From Bacilli bacterium (lineage in GTDB: Bacteria > Bacillota_I > Bacilli_A > RFN20 > CAG-826), in NCBI GenBank assembly GCA_017477255.1, contig JAFUXB010000001.1, positions 93,872-128,695 on the forward strand: a DNA stretch of 34,824 nt. Reading direction: 5' to 3'. A model generated the notes under the pieces. The model searched no databases and had not been told where the DNA came from. It saw nothing but the letters and a program-made list of their open reading frames with translations. Shown here one piece after another: positions 32,308 to 34,824 of this stretch; the stretch's first letter is position 1, and every line of letters begins with the position of its first letter. The position numbers and the translations under genes are program-made.

Positions 32308-32889
32308 ATGAATATTGTTGAAATTTTGACTGAAAAAGAAAAGAAAAAACTTGTGTTTAAAGAATATAAAAAAGATGAAATTATTTTTCATGAAAACGCA
32401 TTGTGCAATTATGTTTGTTTAGTTGTTGAAGGAGAAATTAAAATTACATCATATTCATACAACGGAAAACAAATTATTTATAATACAGTTCAAAGTAACA
32501 AATTTTTCGGAAATAATTTAATATTCTCTAACTCGCCATATTACAAAGGAAATGTAATTGCTAGTAAAAATAGTGTTGTTGTTTTAATTACAAAAAATGA
32601 GCTTATTTATTTATTACAAAATAATCAAAATTTTTTAATTGAATATTTAAGTCAGCAATCTGCTTTCGGTATGTCTTTAAATAGAAAATTAAAAATTGCA
32701 AGTTTTGATAATGCTGAAGAAAGACTTTTATATCTATTACAAGAAAATAAAGGATTAATTGAATTTAAATCAGTTACTGAATTATCAGAAAATTTATTTT
32801 TATCAAGAGAAGCGACGTCACGCTTATTAAGCAAAATGATTAAAAATAATAAGATTAAAAGGAAAGAGAACACTATTGTTCTTCTTTGA
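32308..32889 (+). CDS. Crp/Fnr-family transcription regulator
   Basis: 193 residues: N-terminal cyclic-nucleotide-binding fold (about 15-110; DEIIFHENALCNYVCLVVEG), dimer helix, and a C-terminal winged helix (about 135-190). The recognition helix reads LSREATSRLL with R167, E168 and R172 at the places of CRP R180, E181 and R185, which read TGTGA. The cAMP-binding phosphate loop is not conserved, and only C33 and C37 occur, so neither cAMP nor a four-Cys Fe-S cluster is expected; the effector is unknown. Ribosome site AGAGGG. It probably controls itself and the divergent transporter. Its end overlaps the convergent VTT gene by 17 bases. Confidence 0.9.
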   Translation: MNIVEILTEKEKKKLVFKEYKKDEIIFHENALCNYVCLVVEGEIKITSYSYNGKQIIYNTVQSNKFFGNNLIFSNSPYYKGNVIASKNSVVVLITKNELIYLLQNNQNFLIEYLSQQSAFGMSLNRKLKIASFDNAEERLLYLLQENKGLIEFKSVTELSENLFLSREATSRLLSKMIKNNKIKRKENTIVLL

Positions 32890-33619
32890 TTTTATTAGTA
32901 ATTTTTTTGTCAATTAGTCTAGCTAAAACAAAGACACCAACAACAACGATTGCAATTAACAATATTGCTAATGCCCAATGATACCATGTTATAAATTTAT
33001 CAAATGGTATTATTTTTATTCCAAAGACAATTGTAGCAACCCCAATTCCTCTACAAAGAAGAATGATTCCAAAATGATAGAAAATATTAATTTTCGACAT
33101 ACCAGCTAAACAGCATAATAAATCATCAGGGAATAATGGGAATAAATACATAATTGGTAAATAAACAGAACTTTTCAATTTAATGTAATCTTTTGCTTTA
33201 TTGTAATCTTCTTCGCCAAATAATCTTTTAATAATTTTAATTCCACCAAATCGACCTAAAAGATCCATTAAAATTGAAGAAGCAACTACCCCGGCTAAAA
33301 GTAAAAAATATGTTTTAACATCTGCTCCATAAATAACAATAGCTAAAGCAATAAAAGTTGTAGTTGTAGCAGGAACAAAACATAAAAATACAGTTATGAC
33401 AACTTGAATTAAGAAAAATATTAGGTATCCGAATGGATTATTAGTAATTTTTTTAAATAATTCTTCATTAAAATGAAGACCATTATTGAAATAAACAACT
33501 TTTGTAAGATAAAGAATTAAGAAAGCTAAAAGACTTACAGCAATTGCTATACCGATATAGAGCAAAATTTTTAAAATTTGTTTTTTGTATTTAATAAAGA
33601 AATCTTTAATTTTTTGCAT
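32873..33619 (-). CDS. VTT-domain membrane protein (TVP38/TMEM64, DedA-like)
   Basis: 248 residues with about five to six hydrophobic segments. N-terminal basic region and one helix, then FVPATTTTFIALAIVIYG, the GRFGG motif, and the re-entrant FPLFPDDLLCCLAGMSK, all typical of the VTT (SNARE-associated) fold. Relatives are proposed to move lipids across membranes (for example undecaprenyl phosphate flippases in the DedA branch); the substrate here is unknown. No ribosome site: an extended -10 box lies exactly six bases before the ATG. Its 3' end overlaps the regulator gene tail to tail. Confidence 0.88.
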   Translation of the reverse strand: MQKIKDFFIKYKKQILKILLYIGIAIAVSLLAFLILYLTKVVYFNNGLHFNEELFKKITNNPFGYLIFFLIQVVITVFLCFVPATTTTFIALAIVIYGADVKTYFLLLAGVVASSILMDLLGRFGGIKIIKRLFGEEDYNKAKDYIKLKSSVYLPIMYLFPLFPDDLLCCLAGMSKINIFYHFGIILLCRGIGVATIVFGIKIIPFDKFITWYHWALAILLIAIVVVGVFVLARLIDKKITNKIKEEQ

Positions 33620-33723: not shown

Positions 33724-34650
33724 ATGGCTAAAAATATTATTAAAAGAGACGGAACATTAGAAGAATTTAATGAAGAAAAAATTTATCGTGCACTCAAAAA
33801 AGCTTTTGTAAGCATTGATGAAATTTTTGAAGAAGAAGAAATTGTAAAATTAAAAAATATAATCGTTAAACAAATTTATGGCGATAGTGTTTCTGTTGAA
33901 GAAGTTCAAAATCTTGCTGAAGAGACATTAATGAAGCAAGGTTATTATAACGTTGCTCGTCACTACATTGTTTATAGAGGTGAACAAAGCAAAAAAAGAC
34001 AATATCGTTATGAAATTGCAAACATTGTTCCTTCATATAATCTTTATAAAACACTTAAATTTATTCAAAAAGATTATCCAAGCGACGATTATTCATTAGT
34101 TAAACTTTTAAATAAATATAAAACATATGTTAAGTTTAAGATGGAAGAACAAGAAAAAATGCATTGCTTAATTAGAGCTGCATTAGATCTTGTTTCTATT
34201 GAATATCCTGATTGGGATTTTATTGCAGCAAGATTATTTATGGTTAATTTCTATACTGAAATTAGAGATAACTTAAAGAAATATGATTTAGGATCATTTG
34301 CTAAAAGATTAAAATTATATTGCGAAAAATTTAGATATGATCGTAAGTTATTAAGCTATTATGATGCTGATGCAATAGCATTATTAGAAAAAAATATTAA
34401 TAGATTAAGAGATAAATTCCTTAACTATTCTACAATTAACACTTTCATGAATTCATATTTAATAAAACTTGGAGAGTTTGATTATATTCAAAGCGTCCAA
34501 GAATTATTTATGATTGTAGCAATGATTATTGGAATGAAAGAAAATCAAAGTGTTGAAGAAGTAATTTCAATTTATAACGCTTTATCAAAAAGAGAATTAA
34601 ATGAATCTAATTCTCAGGTAGCAACAGCTTTAAAAAGTATTGCATTATAA
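33724..34650 (+). CDS. ATP-cone plus ribonucleotide reductase N-domain protein without catalytic barrel
   Basis: 308 residues. The ATP-cone (1 to about 90) starts KNIIKRDGTLEEFNEEKIYRAL and includes VEEVQNLAEETLMKQGYYNVARHYIVYR. A helical region from about 138 matches the N-domain of class I reductase alpha chains (CLIRAALDLVSIEYPDWDFIAARL; STINTFMNSYLIK; SVQELFMIVAMIIG). In NrdA, the segment after IYNALSKRE leads to the first catalytic Cys; here the protein ends 18 residues later with no Cys and no barrel. A terminator follows directly. It may be a dATP/ATP-sensing regulator, half of a split enzyme, or a remnant trimmed near the adjacent IS element. No ribosome site; a leaderless start is likely. 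Confidence 0.82.
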   Translation: MAKNIIKRDGTLEEFNEEKIYRALKKAFVSIDEIFEEEEIVKLKNIIVKQIYGDSVSVEEVQNLAEETLMKQGYYNVARHYIVYRGEQSKKRQYRYEIANIVPSYNLYKTLKFIQKDYPSDDYSLVKLLNKYKTYVKFKMEEQEKMHCLIRAALDLVSIEYPDWDFIAARLFMVNFYTEIRDNLKKYDLGSFAKRLKLYCEKFRYDRKLLSYYDADAIALLEKNINRLRDKFLNYSTINTFMNSYLIKLGEFDYIQSVQELFMIVAMIIGMKENQSVEEVISIYNALSKRELNESNSQVATALKSIAL

Positions 34651-34674
34651 CGACCAAAAAAATGGTCGTTTTTT
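34649..34674 (+). terminator. Terminator after the ATP-cone protein gene
   Basis: Stem ACGACCA/TGGTCGT with an A-rich loop, starting at the stop codon and followed by Ts. Confidence 0.88.
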
Positions 34675-34694: not shown

Positions 34695-34824
34695 CAGTGA
34701 ACCCAAAAATTTAGACTTTTAATTTTAATTTTAAATAATGTTTTTTATATTCTAGCGGACTTAAATAATTTAATCTAGAATTAATTCTCTCTTTGTTATA
34801 AAAATTAATGTATTTATCCATTTC
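34695..34824 (-). mobile_element. IS3-family insertion sequence, transposase-end portion
   Basis: The window ends inside the element. The terminal region (read inward) AGTGAACCCAAAAATTTAGA resembles the terminal inverted repeats of Gram-positive IS3 elements (TGA-x-CCCAAAAA-x-TAGAC type), followed at once by the end of the transposase gene. The exact boundary cannot be fixed without the other end. Confidence 0.75.
34711..34824 (-). CDS. IS3-family transposase OrfB, C-terminal fragment
   Basis: The last 37 residues of an integrase-core (rve) transposase, including KYINFYNKERINSRLNYLSP, the well-known end of IS150/IS3-type OrfB (IxFYNxERxxxxLNxLSPxEY). The rest lies beyond the window. It points towards the ATP-cone gene and ends just inside the inverted repeat. 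Only a fragment is visible, so intactness is unknown. Confidence 0.9.
   Translation of the reverse strand, partial: EMDKYINFYNKERINSRLNYLSPLEYKKHYLKLKLKV

Follow-up and report, generated by a model that had tools for sequence, protein, structure and literature searches.

ATP-cones are known as parts of ribonucleotide reductases (RNRs) and of NrdR, and the NrdA of phage Aeh1 is a known example of a split, fragmented RNR. According to the accessible part of PMC9669993, cones work by altering protein-protein contacts upon binding of ATP or dATP, and the second cone of Pseudomonas aeruginosa NrdA does not bind ligand. In Escherichia coli NrdA, residues V7, K9, R10, E15, I17, K21, I22, F49, I58, H59, and K91 contact dATP/ATP, and K21 contacts the second ATP (PMC11447812, accessible part). 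A literature search, which covered few subscription papers, found no report of a stand-alone protein consisting of a cone and the front half of NrdA. Here, we describe an ATP-cone protein of this kind, which is derived from NrdA and is encoded near a contig end of a bacterial genome.

Domain architecture and locus of the 308-residue protein

The window, that is, the whole stretch of 34,824 nucleotides that was analyzed (C1:93872-128695), reaches the end of a contig of 128,695 bases from an organism described as a gut bacterium. A 308-amino-acid open reading frame (ORF) was confirmed at 33724-34650 on the plus strand, running from ATG to TAA. The features of this frame and its surroundings are as follows.

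32873-33619, minus strand: divergent gene for a VTT-domain (DedA-like) membrane protein (PF09335)
33724-34650, plus strand: stand-alone NrdA front-half gene with ATP-cone 1, degenerate cone 2, and helical N-domain, without the barrel (Pfam, PRK12364, homologues in genomes G006, G017, and G020, purifying selection)
33724-33999, plus strand: N-terminal ATP-cone with KRDG hairpin, residues 1-92 (PF03477, structural match, residue mapping)
34009-34284, plus strand: second, hairpin-less (degenerate) cone, approximately residues 96-187 (fold alignments to E. coli NrdA and 5im3)
34285-34647, plus strand: class I NrdA helical N-domain, approximately residues 188-308 (PF00317, VIA-align fold alignment, sequence alignment)
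34649-34670, plus strand: intrinsic terminator, 8-bp stem with four G-C pairs and then a T run, directly 3' of the stop (terminator scan)
34711-34824, minus strand: C-terminal 37 codons of a transposase-like (IS) ORF, beyond the terminator and cut by the contig end (translation)

The preliminary description of this DNA had proposed a stand-alone ORF that joins an ATP-cone to the N-domain of a class I RNR, and this ORF proved to be real. The Pfam ATP-cone (PF03477) matched residues 4 to 88 with 84 bits (cut-off, 25.8), and Ribonuc_red_lgN (PF00317) matched residues 232 to 291 with 35 bits (cut-off, 28), which identifies an NrdA N-domain; the predicted fold agreed with both assignments. In addition, the NCBIfam NrdA model PRK12364 matched residues 4 to 300 over model positions 2 to 304 of 842 with 208.5 bits, where the cut-off for a full-length equivalog is 1377 bits. 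The fold was predicted with AlphaFold2 from nine sequences (mean pLDDT, 91; pTM, 0.79), and its best Foldseek match was P. aeruginosa NrdA 5im3. Model residues 1 to 305 aligned across this double-cone enzyme at an overall rmsd that was large (18.4 A), and model residues 96 to 308 superposed on residues 18 to 218 of E. coli NrdA (best Z, 17.3; 3.3 A; 195 residues). Residues 3 to 92 of the predicted model matched solved ATP-cones (5olk; Z, 13.7; 1.6 A). In fold alignments, cone 1 structurally matched cones of the NrdB, NrdD, and NrdR types, with Z values of 11.7 to 13.0 against NrdR cones and up to 14.2 against Streptococcus thermophilus class III NrdD. As modeled, the 308-residue protein is composed of cone 1, a hairpin-less cone 2, and the helical N-domain, and the second cone is an addition to the earlier domain description. 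The C-terminus is equivalent to residue 218 of E. coli NrdA. Because the first catalytic cysteine of E. coli NrdA is C225, the protein ends just before the catalytic cysteine, 7 to 8 residues short of it, as had been noticed from the sequence.

A proper terminator directly after the ORF had likewise been described, and it was recovered as the 8-bp stem and T run; two terminator-like sites were observed in the region against 0.2 expected. The IS end noted beside the gene is the tail of the minus-strand transposase ORF, presumably that of an IS3/IS150-type transposase. This tail lies 41 bases past the terminator end and coincides with the contig end. The orthologue of the VTT gene is the divergent neighbor also in G017 and G020 (tblastn, 57 to 58% identity), and the convergent neighbors in G006, G017, and G020 include genes for a PAP2 phosphatase and a NUDIX hydrolase. 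The PAP2 gene starts 0 and 1 bases past the stop in G017 and G020, respectively, and in G006 a small ORF overlaps the end of the stand-alone gene by 20 bases, with the PAP2 gene next. Because the next gene abuts in these relatives, there is no space for a barrel. No IS was found at the stand-alone loci of the three genomes. An operon link to any nrd gene was not found among the neighbors, which are VTT, PAP2, and NUDIX genes.

Homologues and reductase genes in the genus

Homologues were searched in 96 genomes, comprising the own genome (G000) and those of relatives. The preliminary description had called for equal-length homologues with the same C-terminus, and three were found in congeners, namely G020 (Candidatus Onthovivens merdipullorum; 306 amino acids, 47% identity), G017 (306 amino acids, 47%), and G006 (307 amino acids, 43%). 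The proteins of the four carriers, whose genomes are 52.75% (G000), 94% (G006), 94% (G017), and 86% (G020) complete, aligned with one internal gap of a single residue and share the C-terminus; the 308-residue protein was 31 to 38% identical to congeneric NrdA. A profile search at an E value of 1e-25 matched 20 of the 279 genomes of the order, all 20 of which belong to this genus. A contig scan of named genomes retained 80 of 142 relatives, and among the matches listed for these, nine loci extended past query residue 270: the three known stand-alone genes, two genes of G008 and G014, and four frames of 846 to 928 amino acids (two from Tannerella and one each from Parachlamydiaceae and Thermoplasmatota). 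Viral contigs yielded two loci with the cone only. Among phages, 1114 records matched and none covered 80% of the query; among plasmids, 618 records matched and 8 covered 80%, and the frames of three plasmid records that were checked (H26, H27, and H34) were all full length (843, 851, and 767 amino acids).

The nrd genes of the carriers were also sought. In a profile search, no PF02867 barrel was found in G000, G006, G017, or G020, and the same search detected the barrel in 16 of the 26 genomes of the genus. NrdB (PF00268) was absent from all four carriers and present in 16 of the 26 genomes, with the same distribution as the barrel, and no NrdR above the family cut-off was found in any of the 26 (G000 to G025). 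Because G000 is only 53% complete, the absences in G000 itself are weak. With no barrel and no NrdB, the stand-alone protein is therefore not a reductase. Taken over the genus, 14 genomes encode an NrdA in which every catalytic residue tested is present, 2 encode one that has lost some of them, 4 have only the front half, and 6 (G004, G007, G009, G018, G019, and G024) have neither barrel, NrdB, nor stand-alone protein. Close relatives with a full-length nrdA at this site, which the preliminary description had named as evidence against its reading, were not found. A full-length nrdA occurs in 16 congeners outside the carrier clade. It could be viewed with its flanks in 10 of them, and there it had no gene in common with the present neighborhood (several of these contigs are only 5 to 12 kb).

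Full-length class III NrdD was found in 22 of the 26 genomes. G024 has a part of it, G000 and G017 show just a short tail, and none was found in G011. The NrdD of G006 and G020 carries its own ATP-cone. In G017 (94% complete), neither a barrel, NrdB, nor a full NrdD was detected, and this genome has no recognizable ribonucleotide reductase unless one falls in an assembly gap. The NrdD frames of three noncarriers, G022 (L176), G014 (L179), and G008 (L181), have a thioredoxin/glutaredoxin-like end with CxxC (TCPNC/TCSNC). This end is unlike the NrdD tail of G006 and G020, and the type of NrdD therefore differs between clades.

A separate protein of about 93 to 114 residues was observed in the four carriers and in none of the other genomes of the 26-genome set. 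Over roughly its last 40 residues, it closely reproduces the glycyl-radical tail of class III NrdD from G006 and G020 (FERIRRITGYLVGT...), and the Zn-site cysteines present in this NrdD are missing from it. Weak matches in two other genomes fall within NrdD frames of 576 to 580 amino acids. This small protein might serve as a spare part when NrdD is damaged by oxygen, in the way that GrcA does for pyruvate formate-lyase. Its loci are as follows.

L194:6595-6903 (G000:C2:42594-42902): small glycyl-radical protein
L195:394-717: small glycyl-radical protein
L196:336-680: small glycyl-radical protein
L197:6807-7088: small glycyl-radical protein

Residue conservation, selection, and history

The equivalents of the E. 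coli contacts V7, K9, R10, E15, I17, K21, and I22 are I5, K7, R8, E13, F15, K19, and I20 in all four carriers. This mapping to cone 1 covers the hairpin and helix 1; the helix-3 and helix-4 contacts F49, I58, H59, and K91 fall outside it because the single cone of E. coli NrdA was aligned to cone 2. All nine sequences of alignment A2 have Q62, which we read as the putative counterpart of E. coli H59. The retained contacts and the strong purifying selection described below support the earlier suggestion of a stand-alone protein that could sense dATP/ATP.

Among the four carriers, 91 of the 308 positions are invariant. At 47 of these, the residue also occurs in at least 12 of the 14 intact NrdA proteins of the genus, and at 20 it is common to at most 2 of the 14. 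In the other direction, of the positions that at least 13 of the 14 intact proteins conserve, 29 are kept in at most one of the four carriers; these include positions 237, 239, 240, 243, 244, 254, 255, 261, and 268 and several in 290 to 298. New invariant residues are present in the cone linker (93, 102, 103, and 106) and at residues 182 to 206, outside the nucleotide hairpin. This pattern of kept and lost residues is as would be expected if the putative barrel-facing side were free and the nucleotide site constrained.

In a PheT phylogeny that covered all 26 genomes, the carriers grouped as a single clade (100/100) inside the genus (Candidatus Onthovivens). The tree of the front-half gene also united the carriers (100/100) in the same order as PheT, ((G017, G020), G006), G000, on a long stem of 0.97. 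In the codon model, a free omega of 0.011 gave an lnL of -3335.5 compared to -3544.7 with omega fixed at 1 (a gain of 209); because synonymous sites were saturated, this omega is a bound (far below 1) and not a measurement. In neutral simulations with substitutions only, at 0.05, 0.1, 0.2, 0.4, and 0.8 events per site, the frame stayed open in 118, 16, 0, 0, and 0 of 2000 runs, respectively. The observed third-position difference was 0.42, against no open frame in 2000 runs at 0.2 events per site. A pseudogene was rejected on the codon model and the simulation. Rates were compared as summed branch lengths from the PheT and front-half gene trees, and the within-clade sums were about 2.52 for the stand-alone gene and 1.74 for PheT. 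The resulting ratio of about 1.45 falls between the values obtained for intact NrdA in two other clades, again over the front half, namely about 1.05 (five species) and about 1.76 (eight species). Most likely, the stand-alone form arose a single time and has since been maintained by selection.

Of the 16 full-length NrdA proteins in the genus, only those of G008 (L046/L097) and G014 (L047/L098) do not keep all tested catalytic residues. C462, Y731, and the two C-terminal cysteines are missing from both, and the G014 protein lacks C439 and Y730 in addition. In both proteins the sequences of the specificity and phosphate loops are rewritten, and the cones and helical domains are retained. The NrdB genes adjacent to these nrdA genes keep, by eye, the motifs of other NrdB, including the C-terminal tail. 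G008 and G014 form a clade apart from the carriers on the PheT tree, and the front-half gene tree joins them to the carriers with low support (44/59). The barrel of the two proteins gave an omega of 0.029 in a three-sequence set that included the intact G011; the barrel is still under selection, and "dead" therefore does not mean decaying. Judged from their residues, these NrdA proteins are possibly dead pseudo-reductases and make up an independent-looking second case, separate from the stand-alone protein. Together with the stand-alone clade, they would thus have the sensing front half outlive catalysis twice within the genus.

Possible roles and comparison with known systems

On the present sequence evidence, we consider the chances about even that the protein is a catalysis-free, ATP/dATP-responsive regulator derived from NrdA and acting in trans. 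Under this proposal, the class I NrdA barrel and NrdB would have been lost in one Candidatus Onthovivens clade, with the regulatory front half kept independently. Cone 1 would bind ATP or dATP in site 1, the bound nucleotide would shift the oligomeric state or self-association of the protein, as in other cone proteins, and this shift would control a partner in trans. The front half is conserved and the catalytic part was not found in the own genome or those of the closest relatives, and this suggests an independent function for the sensor. The partner would most likely be the remaining dNTP-making machinery, i.e., class III NrdD/NrdG. Since NrdD is the reductase that G006 and G020 retain, it may be taken as the leading candidate, and we regard this assignment as doubtful. 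The NrdD of both genomes has its own cone, so that a further cone supplied in trans would duplicate part of its function; no gene linkage favors the pair, and no full NrdD was detected in G017 or G000. It is also conceivable, if rather unlikely as a whole, that the protein is a free-standing regulator that oligomerizes in trans depending on ATP/dATP, possibly by joining the NrdD cones, and that the lineage of G008 and G014 reached the equivalent when its NrdA barrel lost catalysis and the cone and NrdB were kept. In that case, the allostery of RNRs would be a separable, portable function and not a property of the enzyme.

Other explanations were weighed against the trans-acting regulator. The protein could be a retained scaffold or adaptor that moonlights: its fold would mediate protein-protein contacts to a partner outside the RNR machinery, and nucleotide binding would be structural or absent. 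The new invariant residues at the cone linker and at 182 to 206, the membrane protein and phosphatase genes in place of nrd genes as neighbors, and a viral NrdA regulating a non-RNR enzyme, which is cited in the accessible part of PMC9669993, all fit such a role. However, a pure scaffold would not need the hairpin and helix-1 contacts, which are unchanged in all four carriers, and we see this role as a possibility somewhat on the unlikely side. A transcription regulator resembling NrdR, with the ATP-cone controlling gene expression, is improbable. The cone does match NrdR cones and the role is vacant, as no NrdR was detected in the 26 genomes, but the genus is without NrdR also where the stand-alone protein is absent, and neither a zinc ribbon nor another DNA-binding family was found in the protein by Pfam and NCBIfam searches.

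The remaining explanations would make the gene a part or a relic of a reductase, and both are very improbable. The preliminary description had raised one half of a split enzyme. Such a reductase would be put together from pieces encoded by separate genes, like phage Aeh1 NrdA and P. aeruginosa NrdJab, and its barrel gene would lie at another locus. The C-terminus at a domain boundary, the existence of split RNRs (PMC4520616, accessible part), and the protein of about 100 residues with an NrdD-type glycyl-radical tail that the four carriers also share would agree with it. This candidate was rejected, since no barrel was found in the four carriers (53, 94, 94, and 86% complete, i.e., three at 86 to 94%) compared with 16 of 26 genomes in the genus; NrdB is missing as well, and the protein has lost many of the residues that barrel-bearing NrdA conserve. 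The concern that the neighboring IS had truncated the gene, or that a functionless remnant of nrdA is left, draws on the transposase tail so close past the terminator and on the complete loss of nrdA in other congeners (6 of 26 without any). Three species whose loci are IS free nevertheless have this protein, ending at the same point and followed by an abutting gene, and truncation by the IS was rejected on these equal-length homologues. A remnant is further opposed by an omega far below 1 and by a rate relative to PheT that is no higher than intact front halves reach.

A conserved protein that is the NrdA front half and nothing more, in genomes without a detected NrdA barrel or NrdB, would show that selection can act on the regulatory half of a reductase alone. 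It also offers a compact system in which to examine the function of a barrel-free cone, with a natural comparison set of 26 genomes from one genus.

Finally, the protein was compared with known systems. It shares the double cone and helical N-domain with class I NrdA of the PRK12364 type (Onthovivens, Tannerella, and Prevotella; about 835 to 865 amino acids) but is without the ten-stranded barrel (C225/C439/C462, N437, and E441) and the active-site and redox cysteines, and no NrdB partner was found in the genome. In P. aeruginosa NrdA 5im3, an N-terminal cone is followed by a second cone, as here, whereas 5im3 is a full-length catalytic enzyme. In the split RNRs (P. aeruginosa NrdJab and phage Aeh1), the polypeptide also ends at a domain border, and here no second fragment was found. 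Phage ATP-cone proteins are also separate proteins according to their BFVD descriptions (Lactococcus phage P1048, 252 amino acids; Aeromonas phage 4_4572, 88 amino acids), with weak matches (E values of 4e-3 and 0.55) and partial overlap. NrdR is noncatalytic and carries an ATP-cone, as does the stand-alone protein, which differs in having the NrdA helical domain and no zinc ribbon; the NrdR model TIGR00244 gave 15 bits against a cut-off of 124.65, with the cone part alone matching. By analogy, the stand-alone protein would work most like NrdR, as a cone without catalysis.
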